The notes below the pieces were generated by a model. That model was given only the letters and a program-made list of their open reading frames with translations. It was not told the origin of the DNA and did not search any database. Of a DNA stretch of 64,000 bases, positions 38,660 through 48,216 are shown in pieces. The position numbers were made by a program, and so were the translations under genes. Source of the DNA: Halobacteriovorax sp. (GTDB taxonomy: Bacteria > Bdellovibrionota > Bacteriovoracia > Bacteriovoracales > Bacteriovoracaceae); the NCBI GenBank assembly GCA_002720865.1, contig PBIO01000031.1, positions 186,001 through 250,000 on the forward strand. Reading direction: 5' to 3'. Within the stretch, counting starts at the first letter, position 1. Each line of letters starts with the position of its first letter.

Positions 38660-38665
38660 GAAGAG

Positions 38666-38688
38666 AGGGCCTTAGGGCCCTTTTTTTT
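38666..38688 (+). terminator. Rho-independent terminator after glnN
   Basis: A 6-bp GC-rich stem (AGGGCC, 38666-38671; GGCCCT, 38676-38681), a TTAG loop and eight T's, 6 nt past the glnN stop. This is the best terminator seen in the window. Confidence 0.9.
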
Positions 38689-38893
38689 ACTTAATAATTC
38701 CAAGCATGATTATGAGGGTACAGATCAAACCTAACCCCCACTTGAATTCCTTTCGTAAAGCTTCTAAGTCGGATCGCAAAGCCTCTAAGTCAGCTCGCAG
38801 AGCCTCGATCTCCAAATGAATATTGATAATTTTATCTTTAGATTCACTCACTATGTCCAACCAATAGTTTTCAATTAATTTTTTTTCAATCAT
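38687..38893 (-). CDS. Small coiled-coil membrane protein
   Basis: A 68-aa protein: residues about 18-50 form a coiled coil with a nearly perfect seven-residue repeat (ALRADLE, ALRSDLE, ALRKEFK), followed by one C-terminal membrane segment (GLGLICTLIIMLGIIK). This layout resembles CCDC90/DUF1640-like proteins reduced to their core. GAGG 5 nt upstream of the ATG supports a real gene. The heptad repeat is also a 21-bp DNA repeat, which could expand or contract. Its function is unknown; membrane-tethered oligomer scaffolding is a guess. Confidence 0.7.
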   Translation of the reverse strand: MIEKKLIENYWLDIVSESKDKIINIHLEIEALRADLEALRSDLEALRKEFKWGLGLICTLIIMLGIIK

Positions 38894-39027
38894 TGCTTCC
38901 TCATTATTTTAAGAGTCCAATTGATGGATTGCAATTTCAGAAATGAAAAAGAATATTAATCTAATGAAATTATTAGTTATGACAAAGATAGAAGTTCAAA
39001 AAATGAACCTGGGCGGGTTTATTCATT

Positions 39028-39975
39028 CTACATTTTTATTAAATCAGAAATAACTTCACCGTAGTTTTTAGCCACTTTAGAATTCTTTAAAACACCTAAT
39101 TGAGATAATTTTTTATGAAATTCCTTTAACTGATAAGGGGGGATGCTTGGTAAGAGGTGATGCTCTAAATGATAATTAACATAGTTTGGGGCCACCGTAA
39201 GTCTCTCTAGGGGATTTGCGATAGTTGTTCTTGTATTCACAAGAGGATTAAGATCATTTGAGTCGATAGGAGAGCCATGTTCCGCTGCATTTCTGATTCT
39301 GCTAAAGACCATATAAAAACTTAGGTAGGCAAACCAAAATAAAAAGTAATGGAGGCCTAAAAAATAAAAGGCGATGGTGTGAATTAAAAGACTAGGCCAA
39401 AGATTTACCACTAAGTTTTTTAGTTGGGAGAAAAGGCTAATTTCTAAGGTTTTTGATCCATCATAAGATAGTTGATACTTAACTGTTCCTGCGTTCATTT
39501 TGATGATGAGGTAAAGAACTTTAATTCCTGTAAGGCCAAGTAGGTCTCTTAACATCTTTCTCATAAAGCTGGCCTTACTGACGGGATAGTTGATGTAATT
39601 TGGTCTATCGGGATCGGAATCACTTCCGGCAGTCTTATGATGTTCTAGATGATAAGTTCTATAGCGGTCGAGGTCGGCAAAAACTGGGGCAGCACAAAAC
39701 CATTTTCCAAAAAAACGATTCATCCACTTGGTTTTAAAAAAACCATCATGGCAACAGTCGTGCATTAATATGGCCAAGCCTAATTGCCTACCGGCTAAGA
39801 CGATGGCCGATAAAATCCAGACCCACCATTCTGGAAAAAGCTTAATCGCCACAAAACATGAAGCGATTAATAACCAATTAAAAATAAGGATTAAACTGGC
39901 CTTAAGATCTGACTTTTTTAATAAGTTTTGAAGCTCTTCTCTTGGCAGCCGTTCTAAAACTTCACTCGTTTTCAT
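39028..39975 (-). CDS. Membrane fatty acid desaturase
   Basis: Diiron membrane enzyme introducing a double bond into acyl chains. The three His boxes are in order: HDCCH, HLEHH and NYHLEHH. Hydrophobic segments between them fit four membrane passes. At 315 aa it matches the FA_desaturase family that also includes carotenoid and sphingolipid desaturases and hydroxylases, so the substrate is not certain. The ATG lies 6 nt behind an extended -10 (TGTTATATT) with no Shine-Dalgarno, suggesting a leaderless transcript. It is divergent from the biosynthetic island and has normal GGCC content. Confidence 0.93.
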   Translation of the reverse strand: MKTSEVLERLPREELQNLLKKSDLKASLILIFNWLLIASCFVAIKLFPEWWVWILSAIVLAGRQLGLAILMHDCCHDGFFKTKWMNRFFGKWFCAAPVFADLDRYRTYHLEHHKTAGSDSDPDRPNYINYPVSKASFMRKMLRDLLGLTGIKVLYLIIKMNAGTVKYQLSYDGSKTLEISLFSQLKNLVVNLWPSLLIHTIAFYFLGLHYFLFWFAYLSFYMVFSRIRNAAEHGSPIDSNDLNPLVNTRTTIANPLERLTVAPNYVNYHLEHHLLPSIPPYQLKEFHKKLSQLGVLKNSKVAKNYGEVISDLIKM

Positions 39976-39981
39976 ACTAAG

Positions 39982-39990
39982 AATATAACA
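39982..39990 (-). promoter_or_regulatory. Extended -10 (TGTTATATT) of the desaturase gene
   Basis: On the minus strand, 6 nt before the desaturase ATG. It gives a transcript that should begin at the start codon. Confidence 0.5.
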
Positions 39991-40055
39991 TATTTTAGGT
40001 AATTTTTTCTTATAGATATTAATCTTTAAAACTGACTTAGTTTATGAGTAGTCTT

Positions 40056-40080
40056 AAAAGGTAGGACTATCCTACTTTTT
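40056..40080. promoter_or_regulatory. Strong hairpin/palindrome upstream of the AMP-ligase
   Basis: An 11-bp stem with one G-T pair (AAAAGGTAGGA / TCCTACTTTTT) and a 3-nt loop. It could end transcripts in either direction, but it lies between divergent genes and overlaps the putative -35 (TTTACA, 40078), so an operator for the island is at least as likely. Confidence 0.5.
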
Positions 40081-40105
40081 ACATAATACTAATTCATGAT
40101 ACTAT
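40078..40105 (+). promoter_or_regulatory. Promoter of the AMP-ligase, probably leaderless
   Basis: TTTACA (40078-40083), 16 bp, extended -10 TGATACTAT (-10 at 40100-40105), then 7 nt to the ATG. There is no Shine-Dalgarno. Confidence 0.45.
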
Positions 40106-40112
40106 TATCTTT

Positions 40113-41345
40113 ATGGTAGATATGTTTGAAGCCAATTTTATTTTTTTGAGTAACGATGAAGTCTTAGTTAATCAATATAGTTTTTCATTGGAAAGTAGAG
40201 ATAAAGCTGTGTTAAAACAAAATCTTGAAATAAAAAGCTCGTTTCTCGATCAATATATTAATACTATCAAGGAGGGAAACTGTTCATTGGTTATTAATCC
40301 TCGTATACCAAATTTGGCTAAAACGGCTATTGCTAAAAAGGTAGAAGAGGTTCAATCTGATCTACAATGTGGCCATATTGTATGCTCAAGTGGGACAACT
40401 TCAAAAATAAGTATGCCTAAAGCCTTTTACTTTCAAATTGAAAAGGTCATCGGAAATGCTAAAGCTCATAATAGATCTTTGAATTTGGAAAATAATATTA
40501 ATATTCTTTTCCCACTACCCCTTACTCATAGCTTTGGAATTGTTGTTGGAGTATGGGGAAGTCTTCTAGCAAAAAGTAAAACCTACATTTTGAATCAAGG
40601 CTTTTCGGTTAGTCAGCTATTTGACGCGATCAGATTATATAGAATAGATTTACTTTATCTAACTCCAAGTTTAGTTAGACAGATTATTAAGTTTTCTAGT
40701 CGATATAAAAAAGAAATTATTTCTCCTAAAAAAATTAGTATCGGCTCATCTTCTCTTTTCTATGAAGACATTGTTTCTTTAAGAAAATTGTTCCCTGATG
40801 CAGAACTGTACTATACATATGGTTTAACCGAAATGGGCCCTCGTGTTAGCACCTATAGAGTGGAGGATAATGATAGGACATCTGGACCACTCCCCATAGG
40901 GGAACCTCTTGAAGGCGTTTCTCTCAAAGGTGATAGTGAGCTTAAAGTAAGTTCCAAATATTGTTCGAGAATCTTTGAGGGAAGTTATTATGATACTCAA
41001 GACTCGATTGTGAAAATAGGTTCCGAAATATTTCTTAAGGGAAGAAAAGATGACACTATTATATATCAAGGAATAAATATTTATCCTCATGAAGTCGAGG
41101 CTCTGATGGTAAATGTTGGTGGTGTTAAAGAGGCTGTACTAATTGGGAGTGACTCAATTCTTCACGGGCAAGTGCCAATTTTAGTTGTTAATGGGGAACT
41201 TGAACCTAATGAAATCTTTGAACATCTAAAGCAGTATTTACCGGAAACACATATACCCAAAAAAATACTGTATGTAGATGATTTTCCTAAAACTAGTTTA
41301 GGTAAAATACGAAAAAATCTTCTTAAGTCCATCTTGAAACTATAG
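40113..41345 (+). CDS. Stand-alone AMP-dependent acyl/aryl ligase (adenylation enzyme)
   Basis: ANL-superfamily enzyme that activates a carboxylic acid as acyl-AMP and loads it on CoA or a carrier protein. The ATP-binding loop is CSSGTTSK at 91-98; YTYGLTEMGP marks motif A5; GRKDDTIIYQGINIYPHEVEALM covers the hinge and A8; and Lys398 in SLGK is the A10 lysine. At 410 aa it lacks much of the N-terminal subdomain of typical 500-550 aa ligases. With a free ACP and an NRPS in the same island, loading of a starter acid is the best inference. Its substrate is unknown. The 3' end overlaps the dehydrogenase by 23 nt. Confidence 0.88.
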   Translation: MVDMFEANFIFLSNDEVLVNQYSFSLESRDKAVLKQNLEIKSSFLDQYINTIKEGNCSLVINPRIPNLAKTAIAKKVEEVQSDLQCGHIVCSSGTTSKISMPKAFYFQIEKVIGNAKAHNRSLNLENNINILFPLPLTHSFGIVVGVWGSLLAKSKTYILNQGFSVSQLFDAIRLYRIDLLYLTPSLVRQIIKFSSRYKKEIISPKKISIGSSSLFYEDIVSLRKLFPDAELYYTYGLTEMGPRVSTYRVEDNDRTSGPLPIGEPLEGVSLKGDSELKVSSKYCSRIFEGSYYDTQDSIVKIGSEIFLKGRKDDTIIYQGINIYPHEVEALMVNVGGVKEAVLIGSDSILHGQVPILVVNGELEPNEIFEHLKQYLPETHIPKKILYVDDFPKTSLGKIRKNLLKSILKL

Positions 41346-42141
41346 TTTCCGTTCTTTTATAAATCAGATCCCAAATCCCAGTACCGAAACCGGCAATATG
41401 ATTAGTTATTTTTACATTCTTAAGGTCTCTTAATTGACCTTCCTTGGGGTATGGTTCAGGGACGGTTACATCTGTATGGTAAAAAGAATTAGGGTTTTCT
41501 TTAAAGAATTTGAGGAGATCTTCTTCTTTAAAAAGCTCACCACGTGCAGTATTAAGAAGGAAAACATCTGATTTGAGATGATCGAAAAATACATTTTTTT
41601 TAAATAATTCGATAGTTTCCCGATTTAGGCTTACAGTAGGTATAATAATATCAGAGTTTTTTATAGCATCTTGGTACTGTTCATAGCCAATTTCATGATC
41701 GCCTTGAGGTAACCTCGTAACACATTTTGCACCTTGACCTTTTAAGTTGTCTAGCAAGAGTTTACCGATTGTACCTTTTCCTATAATAAGAATATTTTTT
41801 TTATTTATTTTTTCCAGTGCAGATAGAATGTACTCAACGACAAAAGGAGCATTTATTCCGGTTATACTATGTAAAACAAAAGATTGTTTTTTAAAGCTTT
41901 CTGGAGTTTGAGAGGAAAAAAGAAGGACCTCTTTAAGTTTAGTATTTTTTTTTATAAAGACTTTAGGGAATGACCAACCGAGAATATAGCTCACATCTTG
42001 TAATTCAGACTTTAGTTGATGAGGTTCTTCGATAATCCTAAAATCAAACTCTTTGAATTTGTTTTTTAGTTTCTCTATAAAAAAGAAGGGGATCTTTGTT
42101 TTAGGATTTTTGTTAAGGTTTACAAGAGCAATCGAGATCAA
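41323..42141 (-). CDS. D-2-hydroxyacid dehydrogenase-like NAD-binding enzyme
   Basis: Resembles the D-isomer-specific 2-hydroxyacid dehydrogenases (for example D-3-phosphoglycerate or formate dehydrogenase type), which interconvert 2-keto and 2-hydroxy acids. The NAD loop is IIGKGTIGKLLLDNL (GxGxxG). The catalytic set is visible: Arg in NTARGE, Glu in TVPEPYP and His in ITNHIAGFGTG. I prefer a TTG at 42141, overlapping the ACP stop as TTGA. The ATG at 42186 would overlap the ACP by 49 nt and has no Shine-Dalgarno. In this island it may supply a hydroxy acid to the ligase or NRPS. Confidence 0.82.
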   Translation of the reverse strand: MISIALVNLNKNPKTKIPFFFIEKLKNKFKEFDFRIIEEPHQLKSELQDVSYILGWSFPKVFIKKNTKLKEVLLFSSQTPESFKKQSFVLHSITGINAPFVVEYILSALEKINKKNILIIGKGTIGKLLLDNLKGQGAKCVTRLPQGDHEIGYEQYQDAIKNSDIIIPTVSLNRETIELFKKNVFFDHLKSDVFLLNTARGELFKEEDLLKFFKENPNSFYHTDVTVPEPYPKEGQLRDLKNVKITNHIAGFGTGIWDLIYKRTETIVSRWT

Positions 42142-42380
42142 TTTGATTTTTCCATGTAAGTTAATATATCTTGTATCGTTCTCCATTGGGCAGCATCACT
42201 TTCATCTTTATCTATATTGAAATGGTCTTGGATTTCGTAAAAAATAGTAACTCTAGTTAATGAATCAATTCCCAAATCATCATAAATAGAGTTTTGAGAT
42301 TGAATATTATCAATTTCAACTCTCAAAAAAAGATCGTCTATATTGTTAAGAATCTGTTTTAAGATGTCGATTGTGGTAAT
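42138..42380 (-). CDS. Free-standing acyl carrier protein with apparent ATT start
   Basis: The carrier motif DDLGIDSLTRV places the 4'-phosphopantetheine on the Ser of DSL (residue 40 of my model). Homologous ACPs need a first helix before this motif. The only usual start in frame is a TTG at 42326, which would remove that helix and leave 62 aa. From the codon ATT at 42380, right after the upstream gene's TAA and 8 nt after GAGG, the protein is a normal 80 aa (beginning TTIDILKQILNNIDD). I therefore infer an ATT start. The free ACP probably receives acid from the AMP-ligase for the NRPS condensation domain. Confidence 0.8.
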   Translation of the reverse strand: MTTIDILKQILNNIDDLFLRVEIDNIQSQNSIYDDLGIDSLTRVTIFYEIQDHFNIDKDESDAAQWRTIQDILTYMEKSN

Positions 42381-43073
42381 TTAAATATCCTCGGTTGAGA
42401 TTAGGTTTTCTAATTCAATAAAAAAATAATTTATAAAGCAAGAACCAAAAAAAATAACGGCAGTCGTTTCTAAGATTTCTTCAGTGAACTGGTGGTTAAT
42501 ACTTCTCATTAACTCCGATTGGCTTAATAGAGAATCATCTCTAACTACTGGGCTTGTGGCATCGGTTATGACGCTGATGAAGGCTAAAGTAAGTGCAGAT
42601 GTAAAGAGTATTATACTTAACTTACTCTTTTTAATTTTTATATAAATGAAACGGGAGATCGCTAATCCAAATATTGCAATTAAAATATGTAAAAAATCCC
42701 CAGCACCAATACCTGAAATATTTGTTCCTATTTCATTGGGGATGAAAAAATTTTCTCTAAGCTTTTCATGTATTTGAAATTTTTCATCTAATGACAGAAA
42801 AATGAAGCCTACACCTAGGAACCCCATTATGTAGCGTTGAGTTATTTCTTTTACAGGATTAGAAAGCTCAGTTAATAGAAAAGACAAAATGCAGACAAGT
42901 CCCGTAATAATTAGGTTAACACTAGAGAGCCAAGTTAAGTGGGAGTACTCATAATTTATATGTTCCCAGTATTTCGGCCATTTACTAATTATAAAGAATA
43001 AAATCATAATTATATTTATAAAAATAAAGGTAAAGCTAGAAAGAGTTCTAATTCGTGTAAGTTTAGGGTTAAT
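42381..43073 (-). CDS. Polytopic membrane protein of unknown function in the NRPS island
   Basis: Predicted inner-membrane protein with about six membrane segments. It contains SLDEKFQIHEKL between segments and TEEILETTAVIF near the C-terminus. These acidic/His motifs at membrane edges resemble a family of uncharacterised membrane proteins and could bind a metal, but this is inference. An ATG at 43007 would start inside the first membrane segment. An ATT at 43073 (6 nt after AAAGGA) adds 22 residues and completes it, so I infer this start (230 aa). It is first in an operon with the ACP (TAA followed directly by ATT) and dehydrogenase. Export or modification of the product is a guess. Confidence 0.7.
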   Translation of the reverse strand: MNPKLTRIRTLSSFTFIFINIIMILFFIISKWPKYWEHINYEYSHLTWLSSVNLIITGLVCILSFLLTELSNPVKEITQRYIMGFLGVGFIFLSLDEKFQIHEKLRENFFIPNEIGTNISGIGAGDFLHILIAIFGLAISRFIYIKIKKSKLSIILFTSALTLAFISVITDATSPVVRDDSLLSQSELMRSINHQFTEEILETTAVIFFGSCFINYFFIELENLISTEDI

Positions 43074-43111
43074 TTTTATTCCTTTTTAAAAGATAATAGG
43101 TTTAAGAATAT

Positions 43112-43117
43112 TATACT
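43112..43117 (+). promoter_or_regulatory. Possible -10 (TATACT) of the NRPS gene
   Basis: TATACT lies 24 nt before the NRPS TTG in the 68-bp divergent region between the two arms of the island. No good -35 is present. AAAGG sits 6 nt before the start. Confidence 0.35.
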
Positions 43118-43141
43118 TTATTCCTGGCAAAAGGTTAAAAA

Positions 43142-46100
43142 TTGAAATTGAATCCTCAGCAAAATCGTCTCTTTCTTTTTGAGCAAAAAAGAATCAAGGG
43201 AGGGGCCTTCTCAATCCCTATCAAAGTAAGTTTTTCAGAAAATCTGTGTGTCGATTTACTGAGCGAATCCCTCGGTTACCTTGTCGAGCGTCATATTAAT
43301 CTAAGATCAGCATTTGAGCAACCTCAGTCGATACCGCATCTAACCTTAAGTTCACACCCCTTAAATATTGAAGTTAGGGAAGAAGCAATAGAATTAAAAA
43401 TTGATGAATTCGTCAAAGACGACGCTAGAAGAGGGTTTGATATCTTAAATGGACCCCTCTACAGATTTTTTATTTTCCAAGGTATTAAAAGAACTATTCT
43501 TTATCTTAACTTCCACCATTTAATATGGGATGGGTCTTCGACAAGTGTATTTTTGAACGAGCTAAATATAGTCTATTCATCTCTTAAGAAAAATGAAGTA
43601 CCACGTCTTAAAAATCTTGATAGCGGTAGGTATGAGAATTACAGAAAGCGGTTGCGGAAGTTCAGTGAAGACTGGGGGGAGAGTTTTAAACAAAAGTTAA
43701 TGGATTTTTATAATCCGTTAGGAGTTTTAGAGCTTCCAGTTGACTATATAAGACCTAAAGAATTTTCTCATCACGGTGAAATGACTGAATTTGAACTATC
43801 TGGAGAGCTCTATGAAAATATTCTAAATATTTGTTCATCGTATAATATTAATCCTTATAGTTTTTTTTCATCTTGTTTTTCATTGTTGCTGTACCGTTAT
43901 TCTCGACAAGAAACTTTTTATCAAGGTACACCTTTACTTGGTCGTTTTTCGCGAGAAGATATTAATTCGACAGGATTTTATGTTCAGACTGGTCTAATAC
44001 CTTGTGAGGTTAAAGAAAATAAATCCATAAAAAACTTTTTAACAAGTCATCACGATAATATTATAAAGGCACAACATTTTAAGCGCTTTCCAATTGAGGA
44101 ACTATTTAGAATTGTTGATTCGGATTTTGACCAATCTCGAACACAAGGCTATCAATGCTTTTTTATGTATCAAGACTTCTCCAATAAAAAAATGGAGGTC
44201 GATGGAATATCTTATGAAAGAAAACATTTAGACTCTGGTATTGCACACAGCGATTTAGATTTATGGATAGCTCTTTATAGAAACAAGATCTCCGGAGGGT
44301 TTCATTTCCCAATATGTCTCTTTAAAAAAAGCTCCATTGAGCTAATTCAGCAAGAGTTTCTTAGTATAGTCAATTTTGTAGTGGAAAATGAAAATTCTTC
44401 TGTAGGCGACATTCCCATATCTAAGGAACATAAAAAAAGAATCAAGAACGAGTTCATTAATATAAATAATGAGAGATCAGATAGCTTATTGGTTCATTTT
44501 CGAAAAAAAGTTCTTGAATACCCCCAAAAAGTTGCAGTTAAATCGACTTTTAAATCTTTAACTTATGAAGAACTGGATATTTTATCAAATCGATTTTCTC
44601 ATTTTTTATTTTCTATAGGAGTTCAAAATGGAGATCTTATTGCAGTCTCTGTCGAACGAACGGCAGATTTATTGATTGCTCTTTTAGGAATTCTTAAGGC
44701 CGACTGTTGCTATCTTCCGATTGACAGTAAATTTCCTAAGGATCGAATTGCGTACATGATGGAACATTCGGGTGCTAAAAAAATCGTAGTAGATGATCAA
44801 ACAAAAGATTCCTTTAAAAATGTTGAACTTGTAAATCTGCAGAGTTTTTTAAATGAGAGTAATCAATTTGATCAAGGAGAAGTTGATTTTAAATCAAATG
44901 GTGATCAGTCGGCATATATAATTTATACTTCGGGGTCTACCGGTAAACCAAAAGGTGTGGAAATTAGCATTCGTGCAATGTCCAATTTTTTATTGTCGAT
45001 GAAGAATGAGCCTGGGATGAAGGCCGGAGATACATTATGTGCTGTAACTACTTTATCGTTTGATATCTCGGTTCTTGAACTTTTCCTTCCTATCATATGT
45101 GGGGGAACGGTGTTTATCGCTAGTTCAGAAGAGGCAAAAAACTCTCAAATACTTTCTAGAATACTTATTGACCACCAAATTACAATTATGCAGGCAACTC
45201 CTATTACTTGGAGACTTCTCTTTAATTCTGGTTGGGATGGAATGAACACTATTAAGGTACTTTGCGGTGGAGAAAAGGTACCAAGTGATTTAGCTAAAGA
45301 ATTAGCACGGAGTTGTCATAGTTTATGGAATATGTATGGACCAACCGAGACGACTGTTTGGTCGACTTGCAAAGAGCTTAAAGATGATAATGAGTTGATT
45401 AGTATTGGTTACCCAATCAGAGAAACTAGCATTCATATACTAGACAGTAAGAAGAATTATGTACCCATCGGAGCCATTGGGGAAATTTACATTGGTGGAG
45501 CAGGTCTTGCCAAAGGATATTTACACCAAAAAGATTTAACAGAGGAGCGATTTGTAACCATTGAAGGTGAGCGATATTATCGAACTGGTGATCAAGGTCG
45601 ACTTACGTCTTGGAACGAGATACTGTGTTTGGGGAGACTCGACCATCAAGTGAAAATTCGTGGCCATCGAATTGAATTAGGGGAGATAGAGTATCAGTTA
45701 AGTCAAATTAATCAGGTAAAGCAATCCGTTGTGGTGATAAGAGAAGATGTCCCCGGAGATAAAAAACTTGTAGCCTATTTCACTTTAAAAGAAAAAATTA
45801 CTGAAACTAAAATAAAAGATTCGATTCTGAATAGTCTTCCTCCATATATGTTACCTGAGCTTTTTGTGACCTTAGATGAAATGCCTCTCACACCTAATGG
45901 TAAAGTAGATCAAAAAAACCTACCTTCTCCTTATCGAAATAGAGAAGTTGTTGATGAAAATTTGACACTTGCTGAAACTGATACTGAAAAGAAAATAGCT
46001 GAAATTTGGAAAAGGGAATTGAGGATTCCGAATGTTTATAAAGAAGATAATTTCTTTAATATTGGAGGTAATTCCCTTATTGCAGCAAGCGTGTTTCATA

Positions 46101-46960
46101 AGATGTCATTGTCTTTTAAATGTAATCTTGAGCTAGCATTACTATTTGAATTTCCTAATTTAACTCTGTTGGCGAATGAGATTGATGCATTAAAGAAAGG
46201 AAAGCAAAGAAAGTTTAGTAATATTATACGACTTAACAAAGGAACTAATGGGAAAAATTTGTTTTTCTTTCATGCGATAGGAGGAAATACACTTAATTAT
46301 CGTATATTTCTAGACCAAGTCATGGATTATAATTGCTATGGAGTACAGTCCGATGGAGTCGACGGTTTAAATTTACAAAGAAATTCTGTCGAAACGATGG
46401 CTGAAAGCTATGTGAGACAAATATTGAAGGTTGACGCAGATGGGCCTTATCACCTCATAGGGGGAAGTCTTGGAGGTCTCTTGGCTTTTGAAGTTGCTAG
46501 ACTTTTGAGAAATAGAAGAAAGGAGATTAGTTCTTTAATAATGTTTGATACGGCGGTTCCACAGAGAAAACGTTCGAAGATAGATCAGATTAGTCGACAA
46601 GAAAAAAATAGTTTTAGAACTTTTGGTTTCGACCAAATTCGAAGAAGAATTTTAAGTATAATCAATTTTGTCTATCGCCAATTTAATTTGCCAGTTCCAA
46701 TTTCCCTTAGAGTACCTTTGCTTGAGTTTTATAATTTTTTAGCATTGAAGCGCTTTAGACCAAAAGATTATGACGGAGACATATATATGATTAGAATTCC
46801 GATAAAGGAGAAAGGGATTTATGCGCGAAAAGATTTAGGATGGGGAGATTATGTTCATGGAAAAATTGAAGCAGACTATATAGATGCTCCTCATGAGGAG
46901 TTTATTGAGTCTCCAGAAGTCGCAAAGGTTTTTGGAGAATACTTGAAAAGACGTTTTTAA
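43142..46960 (+). CDS. Single-module non-ribosomal peptide synthetase (C-A-T-TE)
   Basis: Peptide-forming megasynthase of 1272 aa. Condensation domain about 1-430 with HHLIWDG at 125-131 (intact HHxxxDG). Adenylation domain about 455-925: YTSGSTGKPKG from 594, YGPTETT from 732, YRTGDQGRL, LGRLDHQVKIRGHRIELGE and NGK with Lys921. Carrier domain with NIGGNSL (phosphopantetheine Ser978). Thioesterase about 1050-1272 with GGSLGG (Ser1109) and probable His1251. The pocket residues read D-I-L-Q-V-C-M-V-W-K, close to the known glycine code DILQLGLIWK. Since the module starts with C, its donor must come from another carrier, fitting the free ACP. TTG start with AAAGG 6 nt upstream. Confidence 0.93.
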   Translation: MKLNPQQNRLFLFEQKRIKGGAFSIPIKVSFSENLCVDLLSESLGYLVERHINLRSAFEQPQSIPHLTLSSHPLNIEVREEAIELKIDEFVKDDARRGFDILNGPLYRFFIFQGIKRTILYLNFHHLIWDGSSTSVFLNELNIVYSSLKKNEVPRLKNLDSGRYENYRKRLRKFSEDWGESFKQKLMDFYNPLGVLELPVDYIRPKEFSHHGEMTEFELSGELYENILNICSSYNINPYSFFSSCFSLLLYRYSRQETFYQGTPLLGRFSREDINSTGFYVQTGLIPCEVKENKSIKNFLTSHHDNIIKAQHFKRFPIEELFRIVDSDFDQSRTQGYQCFFMYQDFSNKKMEVDGISYERKHLDSGIAHSDLDLWIALYRNKISGGFHFPICLFKKSSIELIQQEFLSIVNFVVENENSSVGDIPISKEHKKRIKNEFININNERSDSLLVHFRKKVLEYPQKVAVKSTFKSLTYEELDILSNRFSHFLFSIGVQNGDLIAVSVERTADLLIALLGILKADCCYLPIDSKFPKDRIAYMMEHSGAKKIVVDDQTKDSFKNVELVNLQSFLNESNQFDQGEVDFKSNGDQSAYIIYTSGSTGKPKGVEISIRAMSNFLLSMKNEPGMKAGDTLCAVTTLSFDISVLELFLPIICGGTVFIASSEEAKNSQILSRILIDHQITIMQATPITWRLLFNSGWDGMNTIKVLCGGEKVPSDLAKELARSCHSLWNMYGPTETTVWSTCKELKDDNELISIGYPIRETSIHILDSKKNYVPIGAIGEIYIGGAGLAKGYLHQKDLTEERFVTIEGERYYRTGDQGRLTSWNEILCLGRLDHQVKIRGHRIELGEIEYQLSQINQVKQSVVVIREDVPGDKKLVAYFTLKEKITETKIKDSILNSLPPYMLPELFVTLDEMPLTPNGKVDQKNLPSPYRNREVVDENLTLAETDTEKKIAEIWKRELRIPNVYKEDNFFNIGGNSLIAASVFHKMSLSFKCNLELALLFEFPNLTLLANEIDALKKGKQRKFSNIIRLNKGTNGKNLFFFHAIGGNTLNYRIFLDQVMDYNCYGVQSDGVDGLNLQRNSVETMAESYVRQILKVDADGPYHLIGGSLGGLLAFEVARLLRNRRKEISSLIMFDTAVPQRKRSKIDQISRQEKNSFRTFGFDQIRRRILSIINFVYRQFNLPVPISLRVPLLEFYNFLALKRFRPKDYDGDIYMIRIPIKEKGIYARKDLGWGDYVHGKIEADYIDAPHEEFIESPEVAKVFGEYLKRRF

Positions 46961-46986
46961 TTCAACGTTTTAAGAATAGATCAGAA

Positions 46987-48216
46987 TTAATAACTTAGAA
47001 TGCCTAAGTTCCTAGGGGAGAGCTCTTCATTAAAAACTTGAAGGAGCTCCGTCCTGTGACCGAGTTCCTCTAGATAGAGGCAGCGGTCTAAGAGAATGGT
47101 CAGCTCGACGGCGCGGCCAAGTTGCCATCTGATAATATTGGCAAGGAACATATGCCTTACTTTTTTCTTAACTTCATTATTTTGATAAAAATCTTCAAGC
47201 TCTTTTGAGGTGGGAAGCTGGTCTATATTTTGGCCTTTAAGTTTTAAAAGGGCGTAGTCTGAAAAATTCCCCCAATAGACTCTTGCAGGGGCTTCTCCGA
47301 GAGTTTGAAATTCAGTTACCTTTAGTATTTCTTGCATATAAAGATGCAAGGTATAGCGGTAAGACTTTACTCTTTCTTTTAATTTAAAATCTTCAAAGCT
47401 CATGGTTGAGTGAGAGCGAGTGGCCAAAGTTAGTCCATGGAGGGTGTAATCTAGTGGATGCTCTTTGGCGAAACTTGAAAGATTGGTATTGCTAAGTGGG
47501 TCCATCTTTGAGTAGCAACAACCAAAGTTGAGCATGGCCCGGCCGCCATTTTCGTGAAAGGCCTTAAGATGCTCAAGAGCTAAGGGACCGCAGGTATGGA
47601 GTCCAAGACTTAGGCCGTCTCCTCCAAAATGTTTTTTAAGTACTTCGCCCTTATCAACACCAAACATAAATTTTTCAAAGGAGAGCTTTGCTGCATTTTC
47701 GGGAAGAGGGTATTTAGTCCTTCGCTTTTTTCCTTTTTCAATAAAGTCTTCATTCATATCAAGGCAGGTGGTGGGGATGCCATGGTAATGGGCCATGATT
47801 CTGGAAAAGTTTCCAACCCCGCCCCCAATATCGGCGATTTTTGTAAAGCCGGTTTTTTCTTTTAAAGGAATAATGACTTCCCTTAGACAGTCGATTTCAT
47901 GTTTCTTTTTTTCTTTGACCCGCATATAGGCCCAGCTTGGAAGGGGACCTGGATTATAGGTTTCTCTAGGAAGCTTAATGAGCTCTTGAATCTTATTGAT
48001 AAACTCACTTAAGGGAGTTCCTTCTATCGATTTGGGGTTATTCTTCCCATCAATCTCATGGAGCTCTTCATCTGATTTTGAGTCAAGAAGCTCAAGCCAG
48101 TGGACAGGATAAGCTTCAATGGTTTCCGGGTAGTCGTTTAAGACCTCCCTTTGCCAAAAAGCGCTGTAGGAACTTAGAAATTCCACAAGTGAAAGGTATC
48201 GGTTTTGAAAATTCAC
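46987..48216 (-). CDS. METTL25/RRNAD1-like methyltransferase-domain protein
   Basis: A 409-aa protein with a class I methyltransferase fold. Motif I is IADIGGGVGNFSRIMAHY followed by CLDMNEDFIEKG. The later segments GLHTCGPLALEHLKAF and MLNFGCCYSKM match the HxCGDL and GCCYxxM pattern of the Methyltransf_32 family that includes eukaryotic METTL25 and RRNAD1. Such proteins are less well known in bacteria. A helical N-terminal region of 130 residues precedes it. It converges with the NRPS gene and marks the return of normal base composition. The substrate is unknown. Confidence 0.8.
   Translation of the reverse strand: MNFQNRYLSLVEFLSSYSAFWQREVLNDYPETIEAYPVHWLELLDSKSDEELHEIDGKNNPKSIEGTPLSEFINKIQELIKLPRETYNPGPLPSWAYMRVKEKKKHEIDCLREVIIPLKEKTGFTKIADIGGGVGNFSRIMAHYHGIPTTCLDMNEDFIEKGKKRRTKYPLPENAAKLSFEKFMFGVDKGEVLKKHFGGDGLSLGLHTCGPLALEHLKAFHENGGRAMLNFGCCYSKMDPLSNTNLSSFAKEHPLDYTLHGLTLATRSHSTMSFEDFKLKERVKSYRYTLHLYMQEILKVTEFQTLGEAPARVYWGNFSDYALLKLKGQNIDQLPTSKELEDFYQNNEVKKKVRHMFLANIIRWQLGRAVELTILLDRCLYLEELGHRTELLQVFNEELSPRNLGILSY

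Follow-up and report, generated by a model that had tools for sequence, protein, structure and literature searches.

A compact five-gene cluster with a predicted acyl-glycine product in Halobacteriovorax and two related genera

A stretch of 64,000 nt from Halobacteriovorax sp. (contig PBIO01000031.1, positions 186,001 to 250,000; here called the window) carries five clustered genes for which the most likely product, judged from sequence, is an acyl-glycine, possibly a 2-hydroxyacyl-glycine, that is released or cyclised by a thioesterase (TE). The genes encode a free ligase, a dehydrogenase, a free acyl carrier protein (ACP), a membrane protein and a nonribosomal peptide synthetase (NRPS) with condensation (C), adenylation (A), carrier (T) and TE domains; acyl-glycine is favoured because the A-domain code predicts glycine. 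The general logic, in which an acyl-ACP is joined to glycine and the product released by the TE, is very probable; the 2-hydroxyacyl detail stands at even odds, and the minimal acyl-glycine pathway of five genes, taken as a whole, is given a probability of about 0.6. The five genes are as follows.

40113..41345, plus strand: free AMP-forming acyl ligase of 410 aa with a short N-terminus (PF00501/PF13193).
41323..42141, minus strand: D-2-hydroxyacid-dehydrogenase-family enzyme (PF02826), start revised to TTG 42141 within the open reading frame (ORF) 41323-42186.
42138..42380, minus strand: free ACP of 80 aa (ACP models), with an apparent ATT start preceded by a GAGG Shine-Dalgarno sequence.
42381..43007, minus strand: orphan multi-helix membrane protein, without a Pfam or NCBIfam match and with orthologues in the related loci L028 and L029.
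43142..46960, plus strand: single-module C-A-T-TE NRPS with a glycine-type A domain and a TTG start (Pfam domains, motifs).

All ORFs that a preliminary description had named within 40113-46960 are present at those positions. The ligase and dehydrogenase genes are convergent and overlap by 23 nt at their 3' ends, as they do in L028; the dehydrogenase, ACP and membrane protein genes form one minus-strand unit, and the NRPS gene is divergent from it across a 134-nt gap. Promoter-like and terminator-like matches at the locus did not exceed those in shuffled sequence.

Pfam places the Condensation, AMP-binding, PP-binding and Thioesterase domains of the NRPS in one chain. The motifs HHLIWDG, GGNS978 and GGS1109LGG are intact, as are D1136 and H1251, and the three orthologues share the catalytic residues; the residues on which the preliminary description had based its intact one-module synthetase (HHxxxDG, carrier Ser978 and thioesterase Ser1109) are thus correct, and Asp1136 and His1251 likely complete the thioesterase triad with Ser1109. 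The adenylation code, DILQCGMVWK, is identical in all three NRPS orthologues. Since this code resembles that of the glycine-activating module 1 of DhbF (DILQVGLIWK; PMC4169593), keeps the Gln/Trp pair described in the DhbF pocket (PMC11253843), and belongs to an A domain whose best PDB match is the DhbF glycine module 5U89, the amino acid activated is predicted to be glycine; DILQLGMIWK is a further glycine code (PMC12283262). A product made from one acid and one amino acid, as earlier proposed, can therefore now be given a predicted amino acid. The nearest solved C domains are of the ordinary elongation type, and the idea that a module beginning with a C domain is fed by a free acyl-ACP fits this NRPS. 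The genome encodes one phosphopantetheinyl transferase of the relevant family, on the same contig.

The separate AMP-ligase and separate ACP were borne out by the PF00501/PF13193 and ACP-model matches. In the ligase, the A10 residue Lys398 and the A8 motif are invariant in six relatives, and the models that the protein resembles include those of long-chain acyl-CoA ligases. The ACP matches ACP models with a best E of 1.9e-11, and NCBIfam ACP models score up to 43.6 bits, under their curated cut-offs; its DSL serine, S40, is invariant in eight relatives. The expected start of the ACP gene has no ATG, GTG or TTG. Instead an ATT is found at 42378-42380 (minus strand), where L028 has ATG; upstream lie the GAGG sequence and then the stop codon of the membrane protein gene. 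Initiation at ATT is rare but known, and this codon appears to be a possible rare start; a point mutation or sequencing error is also a possible origin. The ACP and the upstream membrane protein share one frame split by TAA, and a broken fusion of the two was considered; it was rejected because at this point L028 has TAA with ATG immediately after it, and the two proteins are separate in relatives.

TTG 42141 is the probable start of the dehydrogenase gene: this is where relatives begin, and in the model of the longer version residues 1-13 have very low confidence (pLDDT <50). This start gives a 4-nt TTGA overlap with the ACP stop, the same overlap as in most relatives examined. The residues R215, E244 and H263 are invariant in seven relatives, and the Rossmann GxGxxG motif, here GKGTIG, is kept in nearly all of them. 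The fold is of the D-2-hydroxyacid dehydrogenase type in the structural model (TM 0.74 to PGDH 1WWK and 0.72 to McyI), and the activity is predicted accordingly. Because the catalytic Arg, Glu and His are kept, the suggestion in the preliminary description that the acid is a 2-hydroxy acid stays plausible. The segment that precedes the Rossmann domain is reduced in the three NRPS-linked dehydrogenases.

Relatives of the five genes were sought in 129 genomes of the order and then in 369 of the phylum. The same genes, alike in order and orientation, are found in two other genera of the order: at L028 in G029 (the metagenome-assembled genome (MAG) Halobacteriovoraceae bacterium SAT2788) and at L029 in G124 (the MAG Bacteriovoracaceae bacterium GY13CL_bin.22). 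Protein identities range overall from 38 to 59%; in L028 and L029, respectively, they are 44 and 40% for the ligase, 47 and 40% for the dehydrogenase, 44 and 38% for the ACP, and 48 and 46% for the NRPS. Conserved synteny in two other genera excludes chance, and the retention of full-length ORFs and catalytic residues over the long divergence between genera implies function; the five-gene set is, on this comparative evidence, real, functional-looking and conserved. The assignment of the ligase and ACP to the same system as the NRPS, checked by synteny in relatives, held in both other genera. That of the dehydrogenase is backed in addition by its co-occurrence with the ligase: the cassette dehydrogenase is found in 8/369 phylum genomes and the cassette ligase in 7/369, all seven ligase genomes have the dehydrogenase, and none of the 369 has the ligase alone; the profiles for the two enzymes were built from the same loci, so these counts of 7 and 8 are not independent. 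In 8/8 loci the ACP gene lies next to the dehydrogenase gene, in most with the 4-nt overlap.

The membrane protein is the best conserved of the five, with 59 and 50% identity in L028 and L029. It has the conserved motifs DExFQxHE and QFxEExxE, whose Glu, Asp and His residues may form a metal site or have a role in transport. Its AlphaFold model has a pLDDT of 79.6; a fold search gave no Foldseek match with E <0.001, and the best VIA match (Z 8.2) was among unrelated helical bundles. The phylum search yielded five homologues of this protein, and spread beyond the phylum was covered by one scan with the membrane protein as query. At L043:10745-14008 and L044:1777-5841, a homologue is accompanied by a distant 2-hydroxyacid dehydrogenase and a membrane protein of 550-590 aa, with no NRPS.

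Homologues of the ACP and dehydrogenase are also found in a second, larger cluster type, at L030-L034 (genomes G050, G025, G090, G049 and G048). Of these, L030, L032 and L033 also contain the ligase; G048 has it on a separate contig, and none was detected in G025. The content of this cluster type, as given by Pfam for L032 with the biotin carboxylase taken from L033, comprises a carboxyltransferase, an acyl-CoA dehydrogenase, KAS III, a short-chain dehydrogenase, a hydrolase, a hexapeptide-repeat protein, a haem-oxygenase-like iron protein (PF14518) and a second ACP. We know of no described pathway with this gene set.

The order of steps, the 2-hydroxy group and the mode of release that we infer for the five-gene cluster are as follows. 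The ligase would activate a carboxylic acid as acyl-AMP and load it onto the free ACP. The dehydrogenase would act on this acid, either free or on the ACP, and turn a 2-oxo group into a 2-hydroxy group; the overlap between the dehydrogenase and ACP genes resembles that of translationally coupled pairs. The C domain would transfer the acyl group from the ACP onto glycine held by the NRPS carrier domain, and the TE would release the product as N-(2-hydroxy)acyl-glycine or as a cyclic or oligomeric version of this compound. The membrane protein would function in product modification, export or immunity.

Two other readings keep most of this assembly line and differ in what the dehydrogenase does. 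The enzyme may work outside the line to provide or regenerate a precursor, a role that McyI-type enzymes in NRPS clusters may have, so that ligase, ACP and NRPS give a plain acyl-glycine; this account, which partly overlaps the others, is possible, if on balance doubtful. The fold matches McyI among others, and the membrane-protein homologues at L043 and L044 adjoin a different, more distant 2-hydroxyacid dehydrogenase where no NRPS is present; against this, the cassette dehydrogenase gene always adjoins, and mostly overlaps, the ACP gene in two cluster types, which points to work on or with the ACP. An unlikely alternative is a lipo-amino-acid pathway, leading to an N-acyl-glycine lipid, with the ACP charged by the ligase with a fatty acid, ordinary or unsaturated, in the way proposed for acinetin 505; the substrate of the dehydrogenase would then not be a 2-oxo acid, and a desaturase might shape the chain. 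The related system of Acinetobacter baumannii gives a lipopeptide with a hydroxylated C15 acyl group and glycine (PMC5376624), the insertion that holds the five genes also holds a desaturase-family gene, and long-chain acyl-CoA ligase models are among those that the ligase resembles. However, the two sister clusters are without the desaturase, and the dehydrogenase, with its catalytic residues intact, belongs to the 2-hydroxyacid family and not to the acyl-CoA dehydrogenases.

A further reading, in which the trio of ligase, ACP and dehydrogenase serves a pathway of its own next to the NRPS, is very improbable. In its favour, the five genomes that have the carboxylase/KAS III cluster encode ACP and dehydrogenase, in most cases along with the ligase, and no NRPS of this kind. 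Against it, the genes of the trio are interspersed with those for the NRPS and membrane protein, in the same order and orientation, in all three genera, and the NRPS, which begins with its C domain, has no loading module of its own. Several points weigh against the five-gene acyl-glycine pathway itself. The acid used by the ligase is not readable from the sequence; the ATT codon may mean low expression of the ACP; the dehydrogenase is shorter than usual, with a divergent N-terminal domain; the orthologous clusters known number only three; and an MbtH protein was not found in the genome, while the best structural match of the A domain, DhbF, was solved with one.

A wider, tentative reading of the two cluster types is that the ligase-ACP-dehydrogenase trio is a portable device, in which a 2-oxoacyl group might be reduced on the ACP to 2-hydroxyacyl-ACP and then taken up by either the glycine NRPS or the carboxylase/KAS III line; together with the membrane protein it could form an undescribed route to short 2-hydroxyacyl-glycines. 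A trio that serves two different assembly lines would be a natural example of part-swapping. The acyl-glycine pathway, if true, adds a compact example of natural-product synthesis to this group of relatives of predatory bacteria, most of them uncultured, and the small number of genes makes in vitro reconstitution realistic.

The cluster lies in an insertion, to which two further features belong.

38687..46986, no strand: inserted island, approximate extent, from comparison with congeners.
39028..39975, minus strand: fatty-acid-desaturase-family protein (PF00487) within the insertion, of uncertain role in the pathway.

In the congener G038 the flanking genes, for glutamine synthetase III and a methyltransferase, are 34 bp apart, and they are adjacent in G042 as well; from this adjacency it follows that the window carries an insertion of ~8.3 kb, which includes the desaturase gene. 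DNA homology to congeners ends at ~38686 and resumes at 46987. The G+C content is 33.7% for the island and 33.5% for the A+T-rich five-gene region, compared with 38.2% for the window. A tRNA gene or flanking repeats were looked for at the island ends and none was found. In G004 and G009 other genes lie between glutamine synthetase III and the methyltransferase, and this gap (38660-46986 in the window) is a possible insertion hot spot. The desaturase was considered as a core gene but found no support in relatives, being absent from the L028 and L029 clusters and from the congeners G037 and G038.

Other NRPSs are found in the same genome and order. Beside the phosphopantetheinyl transferase gene lies a polyketide synthase (PKS)-NRPS (L025:8519 to L026:1478; G000:C31 ~278.5-291.5 kb) with an AMP-ligase, a ketosynthase (KS), an acyltransferase (AT), two carriers and a class III aminotransferase, followed by a second NRPS protein; many genomes across the order encode homologues, and the architecture of the system is reminiscent of iturin-type lipopeptide systems. 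At L058-L061 (G004, G079, G090 and G030), single-module NRPSs that are seemingly T-C-A-T-TE lie divergent beside a flippase-like membrane protein of ~475 aa. Single-module NRPSs of the order outside the three five-gene clusters were rejected as orthologues, as they start at a carrier domain, lie next to a flippase-like protein and lack the trio.

Among known systems, the cispentacin and coronafacate families (AmcH, AmcB, Cfl) likewise have a free ligase and a free ACP, with weak matches here that include Cfl 7A9J; the scores are far below the cut-offs for both AmcH (94.8 vs 370 bits) and AmcB (34.8 vs 80). McyI of microcystin clusters is a 2-hydroxyacid-dehydrogenase-family enzyme encoded with NRPS genes, and the dehydrogenase here matches its fold at ~19% identity; no free ligase and ACP are known to be coupled with McyI. 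Module 1 of DhbF, from bacillibactin synthesis, is alike in its glycine code but is part of a two-module siderophore synthetase (PMC4169593).

A search of the literature found nothing direct on this gene set in Bdellovibrionota. The closest system is that of A. baumannii, A1S_0112-0119, where a free ligase and a free ACP are encoded together with an acyl-CoA dehydrogenase and a C-A-T-TE NRPS for glycine; the operon has been linked to the lipopeptide-like acinetin 505 (PMC5376624). A1S_0112-0115 is a precedent for the ligase, the ACP and the glycine C-A-T-TE NRPS (PMC5376624), and the two systems are alike in having these parts and a dehydrogenase (PMC5376624, PMC11253843); the NRPS here matches AB3403 (PDB 4ZXH/4ZXI), with the match to 4ZXH covering residues 87-1141. 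The view in the preliminary description that the logic of the gene set was undescribed was not borne out, as the A. baumannii set is functionally the same, though it belongs to a different lineage and has a dehydrogenase of a different family. The dehydrogenase there (A1S_0113) is an acyl-CoA dehydrogenase, whereas only a 2-hydroxyacid dehydrogenase is present here; the A. baumannii genes form one eight-gene operon with further proteins, one of them porin-like, that are not seen here, and the orphan membrane protein and the divergent and convergent layout set the present cluster apart. In the absence of an acyl-CoA dehydrogenase the cluster is a variant, not a member, of the A1S_0112-0119 pathway: what is already known is the pathway class, not the exact combination or the product.

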